Assembly (NCBI GenBank): GCA_002189035.1 | Contig: NEEC01000188.1 | Coordinates: forward strand, 1-27,022 | DNA from: Utricularia gibba | Lineage: Eukaryota; Streptophyta; Magnoliopsida; Lamiales; Lentibulariaceae | Length of the DNA stretch: 27,022 nt | Direction: 5' to 3' | Shown here: one piece after another, positions 1 through 27,022 of the stretch | How the letters are laid out: each line of letters opens with the position of its first letter | Numbering within the stretch: position 1 is the first letter of the stretch | Notes under the pieces: generated by a model | Database searches by the model: none | What the model was told of the DNA's origin: nothing | Seen by the model: only the letters and a program-made list of their open reading frames with translations | Program-made: the position numbers and the translations under genes

Positions 1-3000
1 CCACAAAACGAGAAGCGGTTCCTTGAAAAACCCATGTAGGCAGCCCCCGAAAACCGAACGATAAAAAATACATCACTTTATTTGCCGGGCTACAACTAAC
101 TCTCGCCGCAAGCCAAACCTTACCTTTGTCCGTTCCAGCTGCACCCCAAGACCGCCTCCTCAAGTATAAAGTAAGTTGTTGAAAAAATCATGTGGGGGTG
201 CACATGATATCGCAATTTAAACAAATGCATCATTTTTTTTAATCGATTTGCATCCGGTTGACCTCATGAGCCATACAGAATCGGGGTCAAGGACCAAGTT
301 CCCAGCGAGACTGGCCGCCACAAAACGAGAAGCGGTTCCTTGAAAAACCATGTAGGCAGCCCCCGAAAACCGAACGATAATAAATACATCACTTTATTGT
401 GGGGCTATAACTAACTCTCGCGCAAGCCAAACCTTACCTTTGTCCCGTTCAAGGTGCACCCCAAGACCGCCTCCCCAAGTATAAAGTAAGTTGTTGAAAA
501 AATCATGTGGGGTGCACGTCATATCGCAATTTAAACAAATGCATCATTTTTTTAATCGATTTGCATCCGGTTGACCTCATGAGCCATACAGAATCGGGTC
601 AAGGACCAAGTTCCCAGCGAGACTGGCCGCCACAAAACGAGAAGCGGTTCCTTGAAAAACCATGTAGGCAGCCCGAAAACCGAACGATAATAAATACATC
701 ACTTTATTTGTCGGGCTACAACTAACTCTCGGCGCAAGCCAAACCTTACCTTTGTCCGTTCAGGTGCACCCAAGACGCCTCCTCAAGTATAAAGTAAGTT
801 GTTGAAAAAATCATGTGGGGTGCACGTGATATCGCAATTTAAACAAATGCATCATTTTTTTAATCGATTTGCATCCGGTTGACCTCATGAGCCATACAGA
901 ATCGGGGTCAAGGACCAAGTTCCCAGCGAGACTGGCCGCCACAAAACGAGAAGCGGTTCCTTGAAAAACCATGTAGGCAGCCCCGAAAACCGAACGATAA
1001 TAAATACATCACTTTATTTGTCGGGCTACAACTAACTCTCGGCGCAAGCCAAACCTTACCTTTGTCCGTTCCAAGGTGCACCCAAGACCGCCTCCTCAAG
1101 TATAAAGTAAGTTGTTGAAAAAATCATGTGGGGTGCACGTGATATCGCAATTTAAACAAATGCATCATTTTTTTTAATCGATTTGCATCCGGTTGACCTC
1201 ATGAGCCATACAGAATCGGGGTCAAGGACCAAGTTCCCAGCGAGACTGGCCGCCACAAAACGAGAAGCGGTTCCTTGAAAAACCATGTAGGCAGCCCCCG
1301 AAAACCGAACGATAAAAAATACATCACTTTATTTGTCGGGCTACAACTAACTCTCGCAAGCCAAACCTTACCTTTGTCCCGTTCCAGCTGCACCCCAAGA
1401 CCGCCTCCTCAAGTATAAAGTAAGTTGTTGAAAAAATCATGTGGGGTGCACATGATATCGCAATTTAAACAAATGCATCATTTTTTTTAATCGATTTGCA
1501 TCCGGTTGACCTCATGAGCCATACAGAATCGGGGTCAAGGACCAATTTCCCAGCGAGACTGGCCGCCACAAAACGAGAAGCGGTTCCTTGAAAAACCATG
1601 TAGGCAGCCCCGAAAACCGAACGATAATAAATACATCACTTTATTGTGGGCTACAACTAACTCTCGCGCAAGCCAAACCTTACCTTTGTCCCGTTCAAGG
1701 TGCACCCCAAGACCGCCTCCTCAAGTATAAAGTAAGTTGTTGAAAAAATCATGTGGGGTGCACGTGATATCGCAATTTAAACAAATGCATCATTTTTTTT
1801 AATCGATTTGCATCCGGTTGACCTCATGAGCCATACAGAATCGGGGTCAAGGACCAAGTTCCCAGCGAGACTGGCCGCCACAAAACGAGAAGCGGTTCCT
1901 TGAAAAACCATGTAGGCAGCCCCCGAAAACCGAACGATAATAAATACATCACTTTATTTGGGGCTACAACTAACTCTCGGCGCAAGCCAAACCTTACCTT
2001 TGTCCCGTTCAAGGTGCACCCCAAGACCGCCTCCTCAAGTATAAAGTAAGTTGTTGAAAAAATCATGTGGGGTGCACGTGATATCGCAATTTAAACAAAT
2101 GCATCATTTTTTTTAATCGATTTGCATCCGGTTGACCTCATGAGCCATACAGAATCGGGGTCAAGGACCAAGTTCCCAGCGAGACTGGCCGCCACAAAAC
2201 GAGAAGCGGTTCCTTGAAAAACCATGTAGGCAGCCCCGAAAACCGAACGATAATAAATACATCACTTTATTTGTCGGGCTACAACTAACTCTCGGCGCAA
2301 GCCAAACCTTACCTTTGTCCGTTCCAGTGCACCCAAGACCGCCTCCTCAAGTATAAAGTAAGTTGTTGAAAAAATCATGTGGGGTGCACGTGATATCGCA
2401 ATTTAAACAAATGCATCATTTTTTTTAATCGATTTGCATCCGGTTGACCTCATGAGCCATACAGAATCGGGGTCAAGGACCAAGTTCCCAGCGAGACTGG
2501 CCGCCACAAAACGAGAAGCGGTTCCTTGAAAAACCATGTAGGCAGCCCCCGAAAACCGAACGATAATAAATACATCACTTTATTTGCGGGCTACAACTAA
2601 CTCTCGGCGCAAGCCAAACCTTACCTTTGTCCCGTTCAGGTGCACTCCTCAAGTATAAAGTAAGTTGTTGAAAAAATCATGTGGGGTGCACGTGATATCG
2701 CAATTTAAACAAATGCATCATTTTTTTTAATCGATTTGCATCCGGTTGACCTCATGAGCCATACAGAATCGGGGTCAAGGACCAAGTTCCCAGCGAGACT
2801 GGCCGCCACAAAACGAGAAGCGGTTCCTTGAAAAACCATGTAGGCAGCCCCCGAAAACCGAACGATAATAAAATACATCACTTTATTTGCCGGGCTACAA
2901 CTAACTCTCGCCGCAAGCCAAACCTTACCTTTGTCCCGTTCCAGACCCAAGACCGCCTCCTCAAGTATAAAGTAAGTTGTTGAAAAAATCATGTGGGGTG

Positions 3001-5923
3001 CACGTGATATCGCAATTTAAACAAATGCATCATTTTTTTTAATCGATTTGCATCCGGTTGACCTCATGAGCCATACAGAATCGGGGTCAAGGACCAAGTT
3101 CCCAGCGAGACTGGCCGCCACAAAACGAGAAGCGGTTCCTTGAAAAACCATGTAGGCAGCCCCGAAAACCGAACGATAATAAATACATCACTTTATTTGT
3201 CGGGCTACAACTAACTCTCGCGCAAGCCAAACCTTACCTTTGTCCCGTTCAGGTGCACCCAAGACCGCCTCCTCAAGTATAAAGTAAGTTGTTGAAAAAA
3301 TCATGTGGGGTGCACGTGATATCGCAATTTAAACAAATGCATCATTTTTTTTAATCGATTTGCATCCGGTTGACCTCATGAGCCATACAGAATCGGGGTC
3401 AAGGACCAAGTTCCCAGCGAGACTGGCCGCCACAAAACGAGAAGCGGTTCCTTGAAAAACCATGTAGGCAGCCCCGAAAACCGAACGATAATAAATACAT
3501 CACTTTATTTGGGGCTACAACTAACTCTCGGCAAGCCAAACCTACAACACCCCAAGACCGCCTAAGTATAAAGTAAGTTGTCATGTGGGGTGCACGTGAT
3601 ATCGCAATTTAAACAAATGCATCATTTTTTTTAATCGATTTGCATCCGGTTGACCTCATGAGCCATACAGAATCGGGGTCAAGGACCAAGTTCCCAGCGA
3701 GACTGGCCGCCACAAAACGAGAAGCGGTTCCTTGAAAAACCATGTAGGCAGCCCCGAAAACCGAACGATAATAAATACATCACTTTATTTGCGGGCTGCA
3801 CCCCAAGACCGCCTCCTCAAGTATAAAGTAAGTTGTTGAAAAAATCATGTGGGGTGCACGTGATATCGCAATTTAAACAAATGCATCATTTTTTTTAATC
3901 GATTTGCATCCGGTTGACCTCATGAGCCATACAGAATCGGGGTCAAGGACCAAGTTCCCAGCGAGACTGGCCGCCACAAAACGAGAAGCGGTTCCTTGAA
4001 AAACCATGTAGGCAGCCCCCGAAAACCGAACGATAATAAATACATCACTTTATTTGTCGGGCTACAACTAACTCTCGCGCAAGCCAAACCTTACCTTTGT
4101 CCCGTTCCAGCTGCACTCCTCAAGTATAAAGTAAGTTGTTGAAAAAATCATGTGGGGTGCTGATATCGCAATTTAAACAAATGCATCATTTTTTTTAATC
4201 GATTTGCATCCGGTTGACCTCATGAGCCATACAGAATCGGGGTCAAGGACCAAGTTCCCAGCGAGACTGGCCGCCACAAAACGAGAAGCGGTTCCTTGAA
4301 AAACCATGTAGGCAGCCCCCGAAAACCGAACGATAATAAATACATCACTTTATTTGTCGGGCTACAACTAACTCTCGCGCAAGCCAAACCTTACCTTTGT
4401 CCCGTTCCAGCTGCACCCCTTAAGACCGCCTCCTCAAGTATAAAGTAAGTTGTTGAAAAAATCATGTGGGGTGCACATGATGCAATTTAAACAAATGCAT
4501 CATTTTTTTTAATCGCATCCGGTTGACCTCATGAGCCATACAGAATCGGGGTCAAGGACCAAGTTCCCAGCGAGACTGGCCGCCACAAAACGAGAAGCGG
4601 TTCCTTGAAAAACCATGTAGGCAGCCCCGAAAACCGAACGATAATAAATACATCACTTTATTTGTCGGGCTACAACTAACTCTCGGCGCAAGCCAAACCT
4701 TACCTTTGTCCCGTTCAGTGCACCCAAGACCGCCTCCTCAAGTATAAAGTAAGTTGTTGAAAAAATCATGTGGGGTGCACGTGATATCGCAATTTAAACA
4801 AATGCATCATTTTTTTTAATCGATTTGCATCCGGTTGACCTCATGAGCCATACAGAATCGGGGTCAAGGACCAAGTTCCCAGCGAGACTGGCCGCCACAA
4901 AACGAGAAGCGGTTCCTTGAAAAACCATGTAGGCAGCCCCCGAAAACCGAACGATAAAAAATACATCACTTTATTTGTCGGGCTACAACTAACTCTCGCG
5001 CAAGCCAAACCTTACCTTTGTCCCGTTCGGGCACCCCAAGACCGCCTCCTCAAGTATAAAGTAAGTTGTTGAAAAAATCATGTGGGGTGCACGATATCGC
5101 AATTTAAACAAATGCATCATTTTTTTTAATCGATTTGCATCCGGTTGACCTCATGAGCCATACAGAATCGGGGTCAAGGACCAAGTTCCCAGCGAGACTG
5201 GCCGCCACAAAACGAGAAGCGGTTCCTTGAAAAACCATGTAGGCAGCCCCGAAAACCGAACGATAATAAATACATCACTTTATTTGTCGGGCTACAACTA
5301 ACTCTCGGCGCAAGCCAAACCTTACCTTTGTCCTTCAGGTGCACCCAAGACCGCCTCCTCAAGTATAAAGTAAGTTGTTGAAAAAATCATGTGGGGTGCA
5401 CGTGATATCGCAATTTAAACAAATGCATCATTTTTTTTAATCGATTTGCATCCGGTTGACCTCATGAGCCATACAGAATCGGGGTCAAGGACCAAGTTCC
5501 CAGCGAGACTGGCCGCCAAAAACGAGAAGCGGTTCCTTGAAAAACCATGTAGGCAGCCCCCGAAAACCGAACGATAATAAATACATCACTTTATTTGTCG
5601 GGCTACAACTAACTCTCGGCGCAAGCCAAACCTTACCTTTGTCCCGTTCCAGCTGCACCCAAGACCGCCTCCTCAAGTATAAAGTAAGTTGTTGAAAAAA
5701 TCATGTGGGGTGCACGTGATATCGCAATTTAAACAAATGCATCATTTTTTTTAATCGATTTGCATCCGGTTGACCTCATGAGCCATACAGAATCGGGGTC
5801 AAGGACCAAGTTCCCAGCGAGACTGGCCGCCACAAAACGAGAAGCGGTTCCTTGAAAAACCATGTAGGCAGCCCCCGAAAACCGAACGATAATAAATACA
5901 TCACTTTATTTGTCGGGCTACAA
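1..5923 (+). repeat. Regular array block 1
   Basis: Anchor starts are 1, 318, 630, 939, 1253, 1566, 1878, 2192, 2504, 2806, 3118, 3430, 3710, 3974, 4274, 4583, 4895, 5205, 5516 and 5830. The mean step is about 307 bp, with most steps at 309-314. Shorter steps reflect internal deletions: the copy at 3430 lacks much of the variable segment and part of TTGTTGAAAAAA; the copy at 3710 jumps from GCGGGC straight to TGCACCCC; copies at 2504 and 3974 share a deletion of about 13 bp that joins TGCAC to TCCTCAAG. Apart from such deletions the copies are nearly identical outside positions 78-160. The unit at 5830 runs normally to GGGCTACAAC and then enters a rearranged zone. Confidence 0.95.
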
Positions 5924-6503
5924 CCCCAATCCTCAACATGTGGGGTGCACGTGATATCGCAATTTAAACAAATGCATCATTTTTTTTAATCGATTTGCAA
6001 GCCAACACCTTACCTTTCCTTGAAAAACCATGTAGGCAGCCCCGAAAACCGAACGATAATAAATACATCACTTTATTTGGTGCACCCCTTAAGACCGCCT
6101 CCTCAAGTATAAAGTAAGTTGTTGAAAAAAATCATGTGGGGTGCACGTGATATCGCAATTTAAACAAATGCATCATTTTTTTTAATCGATTTGCATCCGG
6201 TTGACCTCATGAGCCATACAGAATCGGGGTCAAGGACCAAGTTCCCAGCGAGACTGGCCGCCACAAAACGAGAAGCGGTTCCTTGAAAAACCATGTAGGC
6301 AGCCCCGAAAACCGAACGATAATAAATACATCACTTTATTTGTCGGGCTACAACTAACTCTCGGCGCAAGCCAAACACCTTTGTCAAATGCATCATTTTT
6401 TTAATCGATTTGCATCCGGTTGACCTCATGAGCCATACAGAATCGGGGTCAAGGACCAAGTTCCCAGCGAGACTGGCCTTCAAGTATAGTACAGTTAAGT
6501 TGT
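5924..6503 (+). repeat. Rearranged satellite zone 1
   Basis: Units here are stitched from non-adjacent satellite pieces, all in + orientation. After GGGCTACAAC (to 5924) only short scraps, CCCAA and TCCTCAA, remain before CATGTGGGG. At about 5999 monomer position 251 is joined to position 109, and at about 6017 position 125 is joined to position 21. At 6079 position 83 is joined to GTGCACCCC. A fairly complete unit starts at 6261, but at 6385 it jumps from TTTGTC to AAATGCATC. At 6478 GACTGGCC is joined to TTCAAGTATA, followed by about 15 bp (GTACAGTTAAGTTGT) that looks like a corrupted duplicate of GTAAGTTGT. No foreign DNA of any length is present. Confidence 0.85.
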
Positions 6504-6650
6504 GTAAGTTGTTGAAAAAATCATGTGGGGTGCACGTGATATCGCAATTTAAACAAATGCATCATTTTTTTTAATCGATTTGCATCCGGTTGACCTCATG
6601 AGCCATACAGCAATCGGGGTCAAGGACCAAGTTCCCAGCGAGACTGGCCG

Positions 6651-6806
6651 CCACAAAACGAGAAGCGGTTCCTTGAAAAACCATGTAGGCAGCCCCCGAA
6701 AACCGAACGATAATAAATACATCACTTTATTTGTCGGGCTACAACTAACTCTCGGCGCAAGCCAAACCTTACCTTTGTCCCGTTCCAGCTGCACCCCAAG
6801 ACCGCC
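6651..6806 (+). repeat. Half A of the monomer (internal ~156-bp subunit)
   Basis: The first half of the reference monomer aligns to the second half. TTGAAAAACCATGTAGG (6673-6689) matches TTGAAAAAATCATGTGGG (6829-6846) at 15 of 17 aligned bases with one gap. AAATACATCACTTTATTT (6715-6732) matches AAATGCATCATTTTTTTT (6872-6889) at 15 of 18 bases. GTTCCAGC (6782-6789) matches GTTCCCAGC (6947-6955), and AGCCAAAC matches AGCCATAC. A CCGCC closes each half. Offsets drift from 156 to about 165, as expected from small indels. The last ~80 bp of this half form the most variable segment of the whole array. The exact boundary between halves is approximate. Confidence 0.72.
6655..6702 (+). other. Three A-tracts about two helical turns apart
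   Basis: A4 (6655-6658), A5 (6676-6680) and A4 (6699-6702) have centres 21.5 and 22.5 bp apart, close to two turns of B-DNA. A-tracts in helical phase bend DNA in one direction, which is a known feature of many satellites. The tracts are conserved in most units. The spacing is measured from the sequence; the curvature is inferred and has not been calculated. The A6 and T8 tracts of half B are not clearly in the same phase. Confidence 0.5.
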
Positions 6807-6810
6807 TCCT
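6728..6810 (+). repeat. Variable segment of the monomer (positions 78-160)
   Basis: Most differences between copies in the regular blocks fall in this segment. The sites are GTCGGGC (also GGGGC, GCCGGGC, GCGGGC, GTGGGGC), CTCGGCGC (also CTCGCGC, CTCGCCGC, CTCGC), GTCCCGTTC (also GTCCGTTC), CCAGCTGCACCCC (also CAGGTGCACCC, CCAGTGCACCC, CAAGGTGCACCCC) and CCGCCTCCTC (also CGCCTCCTC, CCGCCTCCCC). The flanking sequence, positions 161-316 and 1-77, is nearly constant in the same copies. Variants are length changes inside short C/G runs or around the CAG-TGCAC core. They are useful tags for tracing related copies, but they lie at exactly the kinds of sites where long-read consensus errors accumulate. 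Confidence 0.85.
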
Positions 6811-6814
6811 CAAG

Positions 6815-6826
6815 TATAAAGTAAGT
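6815..6826 (+). promoter_or_regulatory. TATAAA followed by GTAAGT in every monomer (speculative)
   Basis: The sequence AAGTATAAAGTAAGTTG is kept in almost all units. It contains a TATA-box-like TATAAA (6815-6820) and a GTAAGT (6821-6826) that matches the eukaryotic 5' splice-site core. With the AATAAA at 6712-6717 each unit holds, by chance or not, elementary signals for transcription and RNA processing on the + strand. Such short matches are expected by chance in AT-rich DNA, and there is no open frame to go with them. They are recorded only because satellite transcripts are known in many eukaryotes. Confidence 0.2.
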
Positions 6827-6846
6827 TGTTGAAAAAATCATGTGGG

Positions 6847-6919
6847 GTGCACGTGATATCGCAATTTAAACAAATGCATCATTTTTTTTAATCGATTTGC
6901 ATCCGGTTGACCTCATGAG
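6847..6919. other. Palindrome-rich conserved core of the monomer
   Basis: Seven self-complementary sites lie in 73 bp: GTGCAC (6847-6852), CACGTG (6850-6855) and GATATC (6855-6860), which overlap one another; TTTAAA (6865-6870); ATGCAT (6874-6879); ATCGAT (6891-6896); and CTCATGAG (6912-6919). About one six-base palindrome would be expected by chance in this length. The block is retained in nearly every unit of the regular array, and even in most truncated units. A protein-binding or DNA-structure role is possible but is inference; palindromes are also common by-products of satellite amplification. Confidence 0.8.
6882..6902. promoter_or_regulatory. T8 tract followed by octamer-type ATTTGCAT motif (speculative)
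   Basis: A run of eight T (6882-6889; seven in many copies, nine in a few) is followed by ATTTGCAT (6895-6902). The reverse complement of ATTTGCAT is ATGCAAAT, the classical octamer bound by POU-domain proteins in animals. It is present in almost every unit, giving dozens of regularly spaced copies. Nothing shows that the host has a factor binding it, or that it is used. CAAAT (6871-6875) and ATTTG (6895-6899) could pair around the T8 loop, but five base pairs is a weak stem. Confidence 0.25.
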
Positions 6920-8228
6920 CCATACAGAATCGGGGTCAAGGACCAAGTTCCCAGCGAGACTGGCCGCCACAAAACGAGAAGCGGTTCCTTGAAAAACCAT
7001 GTAGGCAGCCCCGAAAACCGAACGATAATAAATACATCACTTTATTTGTCGGGCTACAACTAACTCTCGGCGCAAGCCAAACCTTACCTTTGTCCGTTCA
7101 GACCTCCTCAAGTATAAAGTAAGTTGTTGAAAAAATCATGTGGGGTGCACGTGATATCGCAATTTAAACAAATGCATCATTTTTTTTAATCGATTTGCAT
7201 CCGGTTGACCTCATGAGCCATACAGAATCGGGGTCAAGGACCAAGTTCCCAGCGAGACTGGCCGCCACAAAACGAGAAGCGGTTCCTTGAAAAACCATGT
7301 AGGCAGCCCCCGAAAACCGAACGATAAAAATACATCACTTTATTTGTCGGGCTACAACTAACTCTCGTTTATTCCTCAAGTATAAAGTCATGTGGGGCAC
7401 GTGATATCGCAATTTAAACAAATGCATCATTTTTTTTAATCGATTTGCATCCGGTTGACCTCATGAGCCATACAGAATCGGGGTCAAGGACCAAGTTCCC
7501 AGCGAGACTGGCCGCCACAAAACGAGAAGCGGTTCCTTGAAAAACCATGTAGGCAGCCCCGAAAACCGAACGATAATAAATACATCACTTTATTTGGGGC
7601 TACAACTAACTCTCGCGCAAGCCAAACCTTACCTTTGTCCACCCCAAGACGCCTCCTCAAGTATAAAGTAAGTTGAAAAAATCATGTGGGGTGCACGTGA
7701 TATCGCAATTTAAACAAATGCATCATTTTTTTTAATCGATTTGCATCCGGTTGACCTCATGAGCCATACAGAATCGGGGTCAAGGACCAAGTTCCCAGCG
7801 AGACTGGCCGCCACAAAACGAGAAGCGGTTCCTTGAAAAACCATGTAGGCAGCCCCCGAAAACCGAACGATAATAAATACATCACTTTATTTGTCGGCTA
7901 CAACTAACTCTCGGCGCAAGCCAAACCTTACCTTTGTCCCGTTCAACCCAAGAAAGTATAAAGTAAGTTGTTGAAAAAATCATGTGGGGTGCACATGATA
8001 TCGCAATTTAAACAAATGCATCATTTTTTTTAATCGATTTGCATCCGGTTGACCTCATGAGCCATACAGAATCGGGGTCAAGGACCAAGTTCCCAGCGAG
8101 ACTGGCCGCCACAAAACGAGAAGCGGTTCCTTGAAAAACCATGTAGGCAGCCCCCGAAAACCGAACGATAATAAATACATCACTTTATTTGCGGGCTACA
8201 ACTAACTCTCGCGCAAGCCAAACCTTAC

Positions 8229-9360
8229 AGACCTCCTCAACCTCGGCATCATTTTTTTTAATCGATTTGCATCCGGTTGACCTCATGAGCCATACAGAAT
8301 CGGGGTCAAGGACCAAGTTCCCAGCGAGACTGGCCGCCACAAAACGAGAAGCCTTGAAAAACCATGTAGGCAGCCCCGAAAACCGAACGATCATCACTTT
8401 ATTTGTGGGCTACAACTAACTCTCGCGCAAGCCAAACCTTACCTTTGTAGATCCTCAAGTATAAACAACATATAATAAACAAATGCATCATTTTTTTTAA
8501 TCGATTTGCATCCGGTTGACCTCATGAGCCATACAGAATCGGGGTCAAGGACCAAGTTCCCAGCGAGACTGGCCGCCACAAAACGAGAAGCGGTTCCTTG
8601 AAAAACCATGTAGGCAGCCCCCGAAAACCGAACGATAATAAATACATCACTTTATTGTCGGGCTACAACTAACTCTCGCAAGCCAAACCTTACCTTTGTC
8701 CCGTTCCACCTGCACAAGCCAAACCCGGGGTCCTCAAGGAATTCAAGTTCCCAGCGAGACTGGCCGCCACAAAACGAGAAGCGGTTCCTTGAAAAACCAT
8801 GTAGGCAGCCCCCGAAAACCGAACGATCATGTCGGGGTTAAGTTGTATAAAGTCATGTGGGGTGCACGTGATATCGCAATTTAAACAAATGCATCATTTT
8901 TTTTAATCGATTTGCATCCGGTTGACCTCATGAGCCATACAGAATCGGGGTCAAGGACCAAGTTCCCAGCGAGACTGGCCGCCACAAAACGAGAAGCGGT
9001 TCCTTGAAAAACCATGTAGGCAGCCCCGAAAACCGAACGATAATAAATACATCACTTTATTTGCCGGGCTACAACTAACATCTCGGCGCAAACCATTATT
9101 TGTTCCCGTTGCTGCACCCCTTAAGACCGCCTCCTCAAGTATAAAGTAAGTTGTTGAAAAAATCATGTGGGGTGCACGGATATCGCAAGAGCCATACAGA
9201 ATCGGGGTCAAGGACCAAGTTCCCAGCGAGACTGGCCGCCATTTTTTTTAATCGATTCATCCGGTTGGCACCTCATACCGAACGAATAATAAATACATCA
9301 CAAGGACCAAGTTCCCAGCGAGACTGGCCGCCACAAAACGAGACTAACTCTTGAAAAACC
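8229..9360 (+). repeat. Shuffled satellite zone 2 (truncated, reordered units)
   Basis: Five anchors (8337, 8576, 8767, 8982, 9331) lie 191-349 bp apart. Junctions include AGACCTCCTCAACCTCG to GCATCATTTT (about 8245); TATAAACAACATATAAT to AAACAAATG (about 8475); TGCAC to AAGCCAAACCCGGGGTCCTCAA and then AAGTTCCCAG (8715-8750); and GATCATGT to CGGGGTTAAGTTG (about 8832). In 9188-9360 the order is most scrambled. Pieces from monomer positions about 231-247, 250-266, 52-74, 288-316 plus 1-13, 95-101 and 23-32 follow one another, ending at AAGCCAAACC. All pieces keep + orientation. Deletion alone cannot give this order; repeated unequal exchange, template switching or misassembly could. Confidence 0.85.
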
Positions 9361-10296
9361 AAGCCAAACCTTACCTTTGTCCCGTTCCAGGCACCCAAGA
9401 CGCCTCCTCAAGTATAAAGTAAGTTGTTGAAAAAATCATGTGGGGTGCACGTGATATCGCAATTTAAACAAATGCATCATTTTTTTTAATCGATTTGCAT
9501 CCGGTTGACCTCATGAGCCATACAGAATCGGGGTCAAGGACCAAGTTCCCAGCGAGACTGGCCGCCACAAAACGAGAAGCGGTTCCTTGAAAAACCATGT
9601 AGGCAGCCCCCGAAAACCGAACGATAATAAATACATCACTTTATTTGTCGGGCTACAACTAACTCTCGGCGCAAGCCAAACCTTACCTTTGTCCCGTTCC
9701 AGTGCACCCCAAGACCGCCTCCTCAAGTATAAAGCATCATTTTTTTTAATCGATTTGCATCCGGTTGACCTCATGAGCCATACAGAATCGGGGTCAAGGA
9801 CCAAGTTCCCAGCGAGACTGGCCGCCACAAAACGAGAAGCGGTTCCTTGAAAAACCATGTAGGCAGCCCCGAAAACCGAACGATAATAAATACATCACTT
9901 TATTTGTCGGGCTACAACTAACTCTCGGCGCAAGCCAAACCTTACCTAAACAAGTATGCATCAATATTTTAAACAAATGCATCATTTTTTTTAATCGATT
10001 TGCATCCGGTTGACCTCATGAGCCATACAGAATCGGGGTCAAGGACCAAGTTCCCAGCGAGACTGGCCGCCACAAAACGAGAAGCGGTTCCTTGAAAAAC
10101 CATGTAGGCAGCCCCCGAAAACCGAACGATAATAAATACATCACTTTATTTGCCGGGCTACAACTAACTCTCGGCGCAAGCCAAACCTTACCTTTGTCCC
10201 GTTCCAGCTGCACCCCAAGACCGCCTCCTCAAGTATAAAGTAAGTTGTTGAAAAAATCATGTGGGGTGCACGTGATATCGCAATTTAAACAAATGC
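9361..10296 (+). repeat. Array block 3 with two short junctions
   Basis: Anchor starts are 9565, 9825 and 10070, with steps of 260 and 245 bp. At about 9734 AAGTATAAAG is joined directly to CATCATTTTTTTT, removing about 58 bp. At 9948-9972 CCTTACCT is followed by AAACAAGTATGCATCAATATTT, a garbled stretch containing pieces of TTTAAACAAATGCATCA, before TAAACAAATGCATC resumes. The remaining sequence of these units is close to the reference. The block ends after AAACAAATGC at 10296. Confidence 0.88.
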
Positions 10297-20811: not shown

Positions 20812-21458
20812 TTTGGCCGCCACAAACGAGAAGCGGTTCCTTGAAAAACCATGTAGGCAAAAATAATAAATACATCACTTTATTTGCTGGCAAGCGAGTG
20901 CTCCTCAAGTATAAAGTAAGTTGTTGAAAAAATCATGTGGGGTGCACGTGAATATCGTTTAAACAAATGCATCATGATTTGCATCCGGTTGACCTCATGA
21001 GCCATACAGAATCGGGGTCAAGGACCAAGTTCCAGCGAGACTTTCCTTGAAAAACCATGTTGAGGCGCAAGCCAAAACCTTAACCCAAGACAAGTATAAA
21101 GTAAAAAAAATCCACCGCAATTGCATCCCATCAGTCGAAGGACCCTGTAAAAACCATGTTGTAGTTAAATGTCGCACCGCGCGATTTGCAACCTCATGAG
21201 CCATACAGACATTTTTCCTTGAAAAACCATGTTCATCACTTTATTTTACAACTAACAAGCCAAACCTTAAAGTGCACCACGTGGGGTGCACGTGATATCG
21301 GATACCTCATGAGCCATAGAATCGGGTTTTTGAAGTGTTTAAGAAGCGAGTTGTACACACGTGATATCCAAATGCAGCAACCTTTCCCAAGTTTTAAATG
21401 TTGACGTAAAGAACACCAGGCAACCGAATTCGGGGTTTTTGATGTTCATTTAAGTGAA
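20812..21458 (+). repeat. Degenerate satellite zone 3
   Basis: This is the most decayed stretch of the window. Recognisable fragments keep monomer order and + orientation but are short: AATAATAAATACATCACTT; CCTCAAGTATAAAG; CGTTTAAACAAATGCATCATG; CCTCATGAGCCATACAG (near 20990 and 21191); CCTTGAAAAACCATGT (near 21043); CAAGCCAAA; and GGGGTGCACGTGATATCG (near 21283). Between them lie stretches of unclear origin, 21101-21180 (A-rich, then CCCATCAGTCGAAGGACC) and 21327-21458. No open frame or RNA gene is apparent. The zone may be an old recombination-poor interior boundary between two arrays, or a poorly assembled join. Confidence 0.8.
21327..21458. other. ~130-bp island with little satellite similarity
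   Basis: After CATAGAATCGGG the sequence stops following the monomer until TCCTCAAGTATAAAG resumes at 21459. Short echoes remain (CACGTGATATCCAAATGC near 21358-21374 resembles the core with a deletion; GAATTCGGGG resembles GAATCGGGG), so much of it may be strongly decayed satellite. AAATGTTGACGTAAAGAACACC (21395-21416) has no evident counterpart. No terminal repeats, target-site duplications or coding frame are visible. It is the longest stretch in the window that the repeat does not explain. Confidence 0.6.
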
Positions 21459-24400
21459 TCCTCAAGTATAAAGTAAGTTGTTGAAAAATCATGTGGGGTG
21501 CACCGCAATTTAAACAAATGCATCATTTTTTTTTAATCGATTTGGTTGACCTCATGAGCCATACAGAATCGGGGTCAAGGACCAAGTTCCAGCGAGACTG
21601 GTTCCTTGAAAAACCATGTAGGCAGCCCCGAAAACCGAACGATAATAAATACATCACTTTATTTGACAACTAACAAGCCAAACCTTACTTTGTCCGTTCT
21701 GCACCCCAAGACGCCTCCTCAAGTATAAAGTAAGTTGTTGAAAAAATCATGTGGGGTGCACGTGATATCGCAATTTAAACAAATGCATCATTTTTTTAAT
21801 CGATTTGCATCACCATGAGCATACAGAATCGGGGTCAACCAAGTTCCCAGCGAGACTGGCCGCCACAAAACGAGAAGCGGTTCCTTGAAAAACCATGTAG
21901 GCAGCCCCCGAAAACGAACGATAATAAATACATCACTATTTGCGGGCTACAACTAACTCAAGCCAAACCTTACCTTTGTCCGTTCCAGGTGCACCCAAGA
22001 CCGCCTCCCAAGTATAAAGTAAGTTGTTGAAAAAATCATGTGGGGTGCACGTGATATCGCAATTTAAACAAATGCATCATTTTTTTTAATCGATTTGCAT
22101 CGGTTGACCTCATGAGCCATACAGAATCGGGGTCAAGGACCAAGTTCCCAGCGAGACTGGCCGCCACAAAACGAGAAGCGGTTCCTTGAAAAACCATGTA
22201 GGGAAAACGAACGATAATAAATACATCACTTTATTTGCGGCTACAACTAACTCTCGAAGCCAAACCTTACCTTTGTCCCGTTCCAGGTGCACCAAGACCG
22301 CCTCCTCAAGTATAAAGTAAGTTGTTGAAAAATCATGTGGGGTGCACGATATCGAATTTAAACAAATGCATCATTTTTTTTAATCGATTTGCATCCGGTT
22401 GACCTCATGAGCCATACAGAATCGGGGTCAAGGACCAAGTTCCAGCGAGACTGGCCGCCACAAAACGAGAAGCGGTTCCTTGAAAAAAGTAGGCAGCCCC
22501 GAAACCGAACGATAATAAATACATCACTTTATTTGTACAACTAACTCTCGGCGCAAGCCAAACTTACTTTGTCCGTTCTGCCCAAGACCGCCTCCTCAGT
22601 ATAAAGTAAGTTGTTGAAAAAATCATGTGGGGTGCACGTGATATCGCAATTTAAACAAATGCATCATTTTTTTAATCGATTTGCATCCGGTTGACCTCAT
22701 GAGCCATACAGAATCGGGTCAAGGACCAAGTTCCCAGCGAGACTGGCCGCACAAAAACGAGAAGCGGTTCCTTGAAAAACCATGTAGGCTAATAAATACA
22801 TCACTTTTTGCAACTAACAAGCCAGTCCCGTTCCAGTGCACCCCAAGACCTCCTCAAGTATAAAGTAAGTTGTTGAAAAAATCATGTGGGGTGCACGTGA
22901 TATCGCAATTTAAACAAATGCATCATTTTTTTTAATCGATTTGCATCCTTGACCTCATGAGCCGATCGGTCAAGGACAAGTTCCAGCGAGACTGGCCGCC
23001 ACAAAACGAGAAGCGGTTCCTTGAAAAACCATGTAGGCAGCCCCGAAAACCGAACGATAATAAATACATCACTTTATTTGCCGGGCTACAACTAACTCTC
23101 GGCCAAGCCAAACCTTACCTTTGTCCGTTCCAGGTGCACCCAAGACCTCCTCAAGTATAAAGTAAGTTGTTGAAAAAATCATGTGGGGCACGTGATATCG
23201 CAATTTAAACAAATGCATCATTTTTTTAATCGATTTGCATCCGGTTGACCTCATGAGCCATACAGAATCGGGTCAAGGACCAAGTTCCAGCGAGACTGGC
23301 CGCCACAAAACGAGAAGCGGTTCCTTGAAAAACCATGTAGGCAGCCCCGAAAACCGAACGTAATAAATACATCACTTTATTTGCCGGGCTACAACTAACT
23401 CTCGGCAAGCCAAACCTTACTTTGTCCGTTCAGTGCACCCAAGACCGCCTCCTCAAGTATAAAGTAAGTTGTTGAAAAAATCATGTGGGGTGCACGTGAT
23501 ATCGCAATTTAAACAAATGCATCATTTTTTTTAATCGATTTGCATCCTTGACCTCATGAGCCATACAGAATCGGGGTCAAGGACCAAGTTCCAGCGAGAC
23601 TGGCCGCCACAAAACGAGAAGCGGTTCCTTGAAAAACCATGTAGGCAGCCCCCGAAACCGAACGATAATAAATACATCACTTTATTTGCCGGGCTACAAC
23701 TAACTCTCGGGCAAGCCAAACCTTACCTTTGTCCGTTCCAGTGCACCCAAGACCGCCTCCTCAAGTATAAAGTAAGTTGTTGAAAAAATCATGTGGGGTG
23801 CACGTGATATCGCAATTTAAACAAATGCATCATTTTTTTTTAATCGATTTGCATCCGTTGACCTCATGAGCCATACAGAATCGGGGTCAAGGACCAAGTT
23901 CCCAGCGAGACTGGCCGCCACAAAACGAGAAGCGGTTCCTTGAAAAACCATGTAGGCAGCCCCGAAAACCGAACGATAATAAATACATCACTTTATTTGC
24001 GGGCTACAACTAACTCTCGGCGCAAGCCAAACCTTACCTTTGTCCGTTCCAGGTGCACCCAAGACGCCTCCTCAAGTATAAAGTAAGTTGTTGAAAAATC
24101 ATGTGGGGTGCACGTGAAATTTAAACAAATGCATCATGATTTGCATTGACCTCATGAGCATACAGAATCGGGGTCAAGGACCAAGTTCCCAGCGAGACTG
24201 GCCGCCAAAAACGAGAAGCGGTTCCTTGAAAAACCATGTAGGCCCCGAAAACGAACGTAATAAATACATCACTTTATTTGCCGGGCTACAACTAACAAGC
24301 CAAACTTACCTTTGAAGTGCACCCAAGACCGCCTCCTCAAGTATAAAGTAGTTGTTAAAAAATCATGTGGGGTGCACGTGATATCGCAATTTAAACAAAT

Positions 24401-27022
24401 GCATCATTTTTTTTAATCGATTTGCATCCGGTTGACCTCATGAGCCATACAGAATCGGGGTCAAGGACCAAGTTCCAGCGAGACTGGCCCACAAAACGAG
24501 AAGCGGTTCCTTGAAAAACCATGTAGGCAGCCCGAAAACAACGTAATAAATACATCACTTTATTTGCCTACAACTAACTCTCGGGCAAGCCAAACCTTAC
24601 TTTGACCCCAAGACCGCCTCCTCAAGTATAAAGTAAGTTGTTGAAAAAATCATGTGGGGTGCACGTGATATCGCAATTTAAACAAATGCATCATTTTTTT
24701 TTAATCGATTTGCATCCGGTTGACCTCATGAGCCATACAGAATCGGGGTCAAGGACCAAGTTCCAGCGAGACTGGCCGCCACAAAACGAGAAGCGGTTCC
24801 TTGAAAAACCATGTAGGCAGCCCCGAAAACCGAACGTAAATAAATACATCACTTTATTTGCCGCTACAACTAACTCTCGGGCAAGCCAAACTACCTTTGA
24901 GTGCACCCAAGACGCCTCCTCAAGTATAAAGTAAGTTGTTGAAAAAATCATGTGGGGTGCACGTGATATCGCAATTTAAACAAATGCATCATTTTTTTAA
25001 TCGATTTGCATCCGGTTGACCTCATGAGCCATACAGAATCGGGGTCAGGACCAAGTAGCGAGACTGGCCGCCGAGAAGCAAAAACCATGTAGGCAGCCCC
25101 GAAGAACGTTAATAAATACATCACTTTATTTGCTACAACTAACTCTCGTTACCTTTGTCCGTTCCAGTGCAAAGACCGCCTCAAGTATAAAGTAAGTTGT
25201 TGAAAAATCATGTGGGGTGCACGTGATATCGCAATTTAACAAATGCATCATTTTTTTAATCGATTTGCATCCGGTTGATCATGAGCCATTCGGGGTGGAC
25301 CAAGTTCCGCGAGACTGGCCGCCACAAAACGAGAAGCGGTTCCTTGAAAACCATGTAGGCAGCCCGAAAACCGAACGTAATAAATACATCCTACAACTAA
25401 CAAAGCCAAACCTTACCTTTGTCCGTTCCAGTGCACCCAAGACCGCCTCCTCAAGTATAAGTAAGTTTTGAAAAACATGTGGGGTGCACGTGATATCGCA
25501 ATTTAAACAAATGCATCATGATTTGCATCCGGTTGACCTCATGATAAGAATCGGGGTCAAGGACCAAGTTCCCAGCGAGACTGGCCGCCACAAACTTGAA
25601 AAACCATGTAGGCATAATAAATACATTTTATTTGCCTACAAGAAGCCAAACCTTTTGTCCGTTCATGCACCAAGACCGCCTCCTCAAGTATAAAGTAAGT
25701 TGTTGAAAAAATCATGTGGGGTGCACGTGATATCGCAATTTAAACAAATGCATCATTTTTTTTAATCGATTTGCATCCGGTTGACCTCATGAGCCATACA
25801 GAATAAAGGACCAAGTTCCAGCAGACTGGCCGCACAAAACGAGAAGCTTCCTTGAAAAACCATGTAGGTAATAAATACATCACTTTTGCCGGCTACAACT
25901 AACTCTCGGCAAGCCAAACCTTCCTTTGTCAGTGCACCCCAAGACGCCTCCTCAAGTATAAAGTAAGTTGTTGAAAAAACATGTGGGGTGCACGTGATAT
26001 AATTTAAACAAATGATCATTTTTTTTAATCGATTTCATCGTTGACCTCATGAGCCATACAGAATCGGGTCAAGGACCAAGTTCCCAGCGAGACTGGCCGC
26101 CACAAAACGAGAAGCGGTTCCTTGAAAAACCATGTAGGGCCCCCGAAAACGAACGATAATAAATACATCACTTTATTTGCACAACTAACTCTCGGCGCAA
26201 GCCAAACTACCTTTGTCCGTTCAGGTGCACCAAAAGTATAAAGTAAGTTGTTGAAAAACATGTGGGGTGCACGTGATATCGCAATTTTAAACAAATGCAT
26301 CATTTTTTTAATCGATTTGCATCCGGTTGACCTCATGAGCCATACAGAATCGGGGTCAAGGACAAGTTCCAGCGAGACTGTTCCTTGAAAAACCATGTAG
26401 GCCCCGAAAACGAACGTAATAAATACATCACTTTATTTGCCGGGCTACAACTAACTCAAGCCAAAACAGGTGCACCCAAGAAAGTATAAAGTAAGTTGTT
26501 GAAAAAATCATGTGGGGTGCACGTGATATTTTAAACAAATGCATCATTTTTTTTTAATCGATTTGCATCCGTTGACCTCATGAGCCATACAGAATCGGGG
26601 TCAAGGACCAAGTTCCAGCGAGACTGGCCGCAAAACGAGAAGCGGTTCCTTGAAAAACCATGTAGGCAGCCCCGAAAACCGAACGATAATAAATACATCA
26701 CTTTATTTGCCGGGCTACAACTAACTCTCGGCGCAAGCCAAACTTACCTTTGTCCCGTTCCAGGTGCCCCAAGACCGCCCTCAAGTATAAAGTAAGTTGT
26801 TGAAAAAATCATGTGGGGTGCACGTGATATCGCAATTTAAACAAATGCATCATTTTTTTAATCGATTTGCATCCTTGACCTCATGAGCCATACGGGGTCA
26901 AGGACCAAGTTCCAGCGAGACTGGCCGCCACAAAACGAGAAGCGGTTCCTTGAAAAACCATGTAGGCAGCCCGAAAACCGAACGTAATAAATACATCACT
27001 TTATTTGCCGGGCTACAACTAA
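21459..27022 (+). repeat. Deletion-rich array block 6
   Basis: Anchor starts are 21863, 22164, 22458, 22750, 22999, 23303, 23607, 23918, 24205, 24489, 24779, 25071, 25322, 25588, 25832, 26100, 26630 and 26928; units near 21600 and 26380 lack the anchor (GAGACTG joined to TTCCTTG). The mean step is about 281 bp, against about 307 at the left end. Small losses occur across the whole monomer, including the normally constant half B. GTTCCAGC replaces GTTCCCAGC in most units, and ACGTAATAAA replaces ACGATAATAAA in eight units, none seen before 23340. Units at 25071, 25588 and 25832 are the most eroded. The last unit is cut by the window edge after CTACAACTAA. Confidence 0.92.

Follow-up and report, generated by a model that had tools for sequence, protein, structure and literature searches.

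The 27,022-nucleotide stretch of Utricularia gibba DNA analyzed here (the window) is, with a probability that we place near 0.9, a plant satellite array built on an ancient dimer that is common to two families, with units of 312 bp and 2.33 kb. Satellites frequently evolve through dimer fixation. In the scenario we favor, a monomer of about 156-160 bp would have been duplicated, its two copies, A and B, would then have diverged, and the A-B pair would thereafter have spread and stayed homogeneous, so that it underlies today no fewer than two families of the genome, those with units of 312 bp and 2.33 kb. The homogenised dimer is an observed pattern; unequal exchange and gene conversion are the process that presumably produced it. 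This gives a readable satellite history within one genome, with a shared old dimer and two daughter families, one of which occurs in both a two-level and a three-level form.

Structure of the array and of its unit

The array fills the entire contig C203 (positions 1-27,022, forward strand) with units of about 312 bp placed head to tail, and TRF found periods of 243-312 bp across most of positions 1-25594. Unit lengths were 305-320 bp in 36 of 88 cases, shorter in 44 and longer in 8, and the exact strings that start A and B were found 83 and 60 times, respectively. The median lengths of the two halves were 151 and 158 bp, as measured on the 69 of 88 A-start intervals that contained exactly one B start and were shorter than 345 bp. 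A consensus of 312 bp, with halves of 152 bp (A) and 160 bp (B), was built from 51 copies, these being the intervals of 285-320 bp chosen among the 77 lying between 78 exact start motifs. The 316-bp unit from which the sequence-only reading had started (6651-6966, forward strand) has 100% matches also on contigs C300 and C260. By motif positions on the same strand, its half A of 156 bp occupies 6673-6828, opening with TTGAAAAACCATGTAGG and closing with AAGTAAGTTG, and its half B of 160 bp occupies 6829-6988, opening with TTGAAAAAATCATGTGGG and ending at the base that precedes 6989, where the following A begins.

Parts of the array are damaged. Scrambled and truncated units were read by eye at 8229-9420 (forward strand), where nearby unit lengths are 191-239 and 583 bp, and further stretches with shuffled pieces and many short deletions lie at about 5920-6480, 20820-21450 and 24100-26500. 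Among the 51 longer copies, substitutions were few (mean of 1.4%) compared with deleted columns (2.5%). The damaged stretches are probably in part errors of assembly or consensus, and an unpolished long-read consensus is a likely cause of the short deletions, so the unit lengths in the window should not be over-read. One internal deletion (AAATGCATCATGATTTGCAT) is present three times in the window, at 20965, 24127 and 25509, and has an exact match nowhere else in the genome.

Relationship between the two halves

The sequence-only reading had proposed that the unit is a fixed dimer of two halves of about 156 bp, on the basis of motif pairs recurring in the same order. The first two pairs are placed as claimed (6673/6829, offset of 156; 6715/6872, offset of 157), and a recount by hand confirmed 30 identical bases out of 35 in these blocks. 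The later motifs do follow in the same order (GTTCCAGC/GTTCCCAGC at 6782/6947 and CCGCC at 6802/6964), but their offsets of 165 and 162 depart from a constant spacing and thus require gaps in the alignment of A with B; the best global alignment leaves two GTTCC blocks unpaired. Gapless circular offsets gave no real peak, the best value being 0.33 at 154/158 against 0.327 at an offset of 1.

Aligned globally, the two halves of the consensus scored 94, outside the range of the shuffled controls with which the earlier reading had proposed to compare them: means were 50.1 for mononucleotide and 46.4 for dinucleotide shuffles, and 0 of 2000 of each kind reached 94. The local score was reached by 3 of 2000 mononucleotide and 1 of 2000 dinucleotide shuffles, and a circular test, independent of the chosen breakpoint, by 1 of 500 and 0 of 500. 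The occasional shuffles that attain the local and circular scores speak for a likeness born of chance or composition (A/T tracts), an explanation that we consider almost certainly wrong, given that no dinucleotide shuffle attains the global score and that the independent 2.33-kb family, the monomer tree and the profile test described below all contradict it. For the two dimers of contig C7, on which the 312-bp family has an additional level, the score of half against half was reached by 0 of 1000 shuffles globally but by 13 and 5 of 1000 locally, the local figures speaking against the dimer. The identity of A with B is 0.73 of the aligned columns, far below that between units (0.993-0.994).

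The likeness is unevenly distributed along the halves, which we cut into 5' and 3' parts after the CATCA-T block. It is strongest in the first 60 bp or so, that is, in the block of A that runs through CATCACTTTATTT (6673-6732, forward strand) and that of B that runs through CATCATTTTTTTT (6829-6889, forward strand), for which 0 of 2000 shuffles did as well. The remaining 97 bp or so of the window consensus were matched by 119 of 2000 shuffles and the 3' part of the C7 b dimer by 260 of 2000, neither being significant alone. Such figures would be expected if a module of about 60 bp (TTGAAAAA..CATG..ATGCATCA) had been duplicated by itself within a longer repeat, the rest being unrelated, so that there would be no dimer. 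We regard a module of this kind as improbable: the halves are nearly equal in length, and the 3' parts proved related once a second family was brought in.

A second satellite family and the age of the duplication

This second satellite was found on contig C258 (L030:1-3000), with a unit of about 2.33 kb whose first 672 bases recur at 98.8%. Contigs C150, C219 and C402 bear more units, with 97-99.5% identity across long matches, and a marker of the family has 215 exact copies in the genome, which corresponds to about 0.5 Mb. The family was also seen on C183, C196, C209, C210, C211, C215, C217, C252 and others. Its unit is laid out as B', A', B', A', B' and a cut A', that is, two to three diverged A'B' pairs, which match A or B with 70-72% identity in full-length matches, the middle B' matching over 57 bp only. 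Between about 1691 and 2590 of L030, the unit further contains a segment full of sub-repeats, both inverted and direct; it looks like a foldback-type element, and neither a coding nor a mobile element was identified in it.

The halves of the A'B' pairs are more alike than A and B of the window. Four full-length pairs each gave 0 of 1000 shuffles, globally and locally, with z of 6.3-12.4, and the fifth, with the cut A', gave 1 of 1000 globally and 0 of 1000 locally. In their 3' parts, 8 of 2000 shuffles did as well for Ap1/Bp1 and 0 of 2000 for Ap2/Bp3, the other two pairs being weak (70 and 203 of 2000). Profiles were then made from 6 A-type and 6 B-type rows, dropping columns less than half filled; profile A matched profile B better than all 200 column shuffles over the whole length, the 5' part and the 3' part (z of 11.9, 8.4 and 6.4, respectively). 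It is only because the second family and the profiles were added that the likeness over the 3' part became significant, and these same results argue against the duplication of a module alone.

In a tree of the same 12 monomers, a single branch with 100/100 support divides A-type from B-type sequences, and either side contains members of both families; 5 of the 9 inner forks of the tree are unresolved, its C7 rows are 2-3 bases out of register, and B_7a and B_7b end in 7 bases that come from the other dimer. Together, tree and profiles imply that the duplication spans the full length of the monomer and predates the split of the families. The comparisons thus support the view that A and B are homologous along their full length, 3' part included, and likewise that their separation is older than the divergence of the 312-bp and 2.33-kb families. 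The original proposal is supported on both counts, the fixed dimer of A and B as the present unit and its origin in a monomer of about 156-160 bp.

Higher-order organization and search for monomeric arrays

The sequence-only reading had also allowed for multi-unit blocks above the dimer. This level is absent from the window, where the identity of dimers is flat at 0.993-0.994 from lag 1 to lag 8, but it exists on contig C7, where dimer identity over positions 1-10000 was 0.898 at lag 1 and 0.986 at lag 2, and in the other three pieces 0.890-0.904 and 0.976-0.995. C7 is thus mainly made of a unit of about 625 bp, a dimer of dimers, with some same-type neighbours and stretches of odd length. A comparable lag-2 peak was absent from the other 24 array loci, some of which are short or noisy and one of which (L007) has no lag-2 pair. 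At the 36 sites that separate the two dimers of C7, the window consensus matches one at 20, the other at 13 and neither at 3, and it follows them in blocks with 3 switches (0 of 50,000 shuffles had as few). When C7 is cut at the switch, a point picked after the switch had been observed, it yields a window-like dimer, M (0.981 identity with the window consensus), and another one, X (0.887). X is a second dimer of the 312-bp family, M and X alternating on C7 as the higher-order unit of about 625 bp. The window unit may be a recombinant cut from the C7 pair, and M and X joined inside B fits the data equally well. Compared with one A'B' pair, the identities were 0.754 for the window consensus, 0.730 for M and 0.777 for X.

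Arrays of the simple form of about 156 bp, which the earlier reading had suggested looking for, did not turn up: exact matching over 100,091,633 bases on 516 contigs gave 0 junctions of the A-A and 0 of the B-B kind, though exact patterns would miss a monomeric array that has diverged. Junctions with at most 2 edits, counted in 197,136 bases, amounted to 528 from B to A and 515 from A to B. The 48 approximate junctions that looked like A to A all end in CATGTGGG of B after a short A-run, and the 2 that looked like B to B both end in CCATGTAGG of A, so all of them are ordinary junctions. The order of BLAST pieces gave 24 AA and 17 BB neighbours across 11 loci, which we take as split matches within damaged stretches; 13 stretches longer than 60 bp matched neither half, in 5 of the 11 array loci (L006, L007, L011, L012 and L017). 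The arrangement in the array loci is a head-to-tail tandem in which A and B alternate, and an old dimer does not require that monomer arrays survive.

Abundance and genomic placement

The exact core of B has 2,947 copies in the genome (1,547 forward and 1,400 reverse; control 0) and that of X has 991 (626 and 365; control 0). The 3,938 exact matches represent about 1.2 Mb, if one 312-bp dimer is assumed per exact core and exact matches only are counted. Among the matches listed, whose contig order begins at C7, the exact core is absent from C1-C6, C8 and C9, C1 being at least 5.68 Mb long. The internal deletion described above was tried as a probe for sampling the genome and rejected, its 3 sites all lying in the window contig; the T9 variant, used instead, gave 92 sites on 37 contigs, every one below position 60,000, and the contigs for which lengths were available are all under 45 kb. 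Twelve contigs of the 312-bp family were read whole or at both ends (C7, C139, C203, C204, C238, C259, C260, C296 and C298-C301), and 0 of the 12 had non-satellite DNA at the ends, which means that none of these is anchored.

This lack of anchoring is also what a contaminant foreign to the plant would give. Such an origin is highly improbable, since the related 2.33-kb family ends a 2.63-Mb contig, C402, where its array runs from 2,605,372 to the contig end at 2,629,907 (L042, L039 and L040). In the flank that precedes this array, some pieces have Nop and NOP5NT domains and others Integrase_H2C2 and zf-H2C2 domains, and there are rve and SH3_Tf2-1 matches below the Pfam cut-offs; the integrase pieces presumably belong to a Ty3/gypsy-type element. 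The array starts a few kb from the gene with the Nop domain.

Where the 312-bp arrays reside can be proposed only tentatively. Their abundance, their monomer length and the existence of a centromere-associated repeat of 161 bp in the sister genus Genlisea point to (peri)centromeric heterochromatin, a setting to which we give somewhat less than even odds. The repeat in question, Gn7c161 of Genlisea nigrocaulis, is described in the excerpt of PMC4542322 as the most abundant tandem repeat of its genome, and its monomer length is near that of A and B. We also considered it as a relative: over its two primers, 49 bases in total, the matches to A, B, Ap2 and Bp2 were no better than those of shuffles (255 and 380 of 500).

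Instead, the satellite may belong to heterochromatin at interstitial or subtelomeric sites and serve nothing but its own spread, which we hold to be close to an even chance. It would agree with the large contigs devoid of the exact core among the matches listed, with the 0 of 92 sampled sites past position 60,000, with the proximity of the related 2.33-kb array to the Nop-domain gene, and with the excerpt of PMC8333044, which states, citing another paper, that the putative centromeric regions of U. gibba lack satellite repeats. The total of about 1.2 Mb and the monomer length close to that of the Genlisea repeat (PMC4542322, in excerpt) argue against it, as does the absence of other DNA at the ends of the array contigs, which is what one expects of unassembled centromeres. 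It is because the putative centromeres were described in that excerpt as being without satellites that a dimer satellite matters in U. gibba. That this plant does have a centromere satellite, made of the 312-bp family and its 2.33-kb sister and left on small contigs, seems to us possible but on the whole doubtful; if true, the idea that new, satellite-free centromeres arose after genome shrinkage would rest on missing sequence. The stated absence and centromeric arrays can be compatible, if the arrays were simply unplaced in the assembly, and the 312-bp and 2.33-kb repeats provide probes for testing directly the published statement (PMC8333044, in excerpt).

Two other ideas were considered. 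As to an rDNA origin, no Rfam match was obtained in 6 loci (18,827 bases). The remark of the sequence-only reading that 156 bp is close to nucleosome-scale satellite lengths stands for the length itself, but the WW signal at about 10 bp lies within mononucleotide shuffles (557 of 2000), and nucleosome positioning was rejected.

Relation to known satellites

Doubled satellites whose halves are weakly related and plant AB higher-order repeats are already known, and that of U. gibba is a well-resolved new example. A close likeness outside plants is found in New World monkeys, whose 343-bp satellite is, according to the excerpt of PMC4053949, a doubled 171-bp unit: in both cases a doubled unit with weakly related halves has taken over from the single one as the main repeat. 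Unlike the monkey case as excerpted, U. gibba has a second family that retains the dimer, and the search for a monomeric form found none; we do not propose that the two satellites are related in sequence. Among plants, the AB higher-order repeats of satellites such as that of Sorghum bicolor (PMC4053949, in excerpt) similarly have A and B in separate groups of the tree, and relative to them C7 has an extra level, the dimer of dimers. Recent higher-order repeats have copies that differ by SNPs, whereas A and B of U. gibba are much more diverged (0.73 of aligned columns). Satellites can also arise from tandem repeats within mobile elements (PMC7004042, in excerpt), and the 2.33-kb unit recalls them in that a segment with abundant inverted repeats is coupled to its A'B' pairs; it differs from the excerpted cases in that no element was identified in this segment.

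In the excerpts searched, neither a 312-bp nor a 2.33-kb repeat of U. gibba was named. The genome paper, reportedly that of Lan et al. in 2017, was outside the search, so this absence is unproven.

Other observations on the genome

Telomere repeats of the TTTAGGG type are present in the genome, and the telomere at C2:1-2415 (L001) consists mainly of CCCTAAA, among which CCCTAA and CCCTGAA units are scattered. Chlamydomonas- and Genlisea-type repeats are mentioned as lying near telomeres of U. gibba in the excerpt of PMC6982007.

On C515, the cox1 match falls into two pieces separated by about 1 kb, as though an intron lay between them. It reads ...LLLLCCSALVE..., with a contiguous Cys-Cys which we take to be the cysteine pair already reported for this protein; to our knowledge, other plants do not have it at that position of cox1. 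In Utricularia and part of Genlisea, cytochrome c oxidase is described as having two contiguous cysteines (PMC3141634, in excerpt). The Cys-Cys of cox1 and the TTTAGGG telomere repeats speak for U. gibba as the host. Five short cox1-like matches of 31-35 bits (C213:3237076, C409:1464362, C505:2133606, C244:121055 and C1:5683662), each with internal stop codons, are perhaps nuclear copies of mitochondrial DNA or due to chance.
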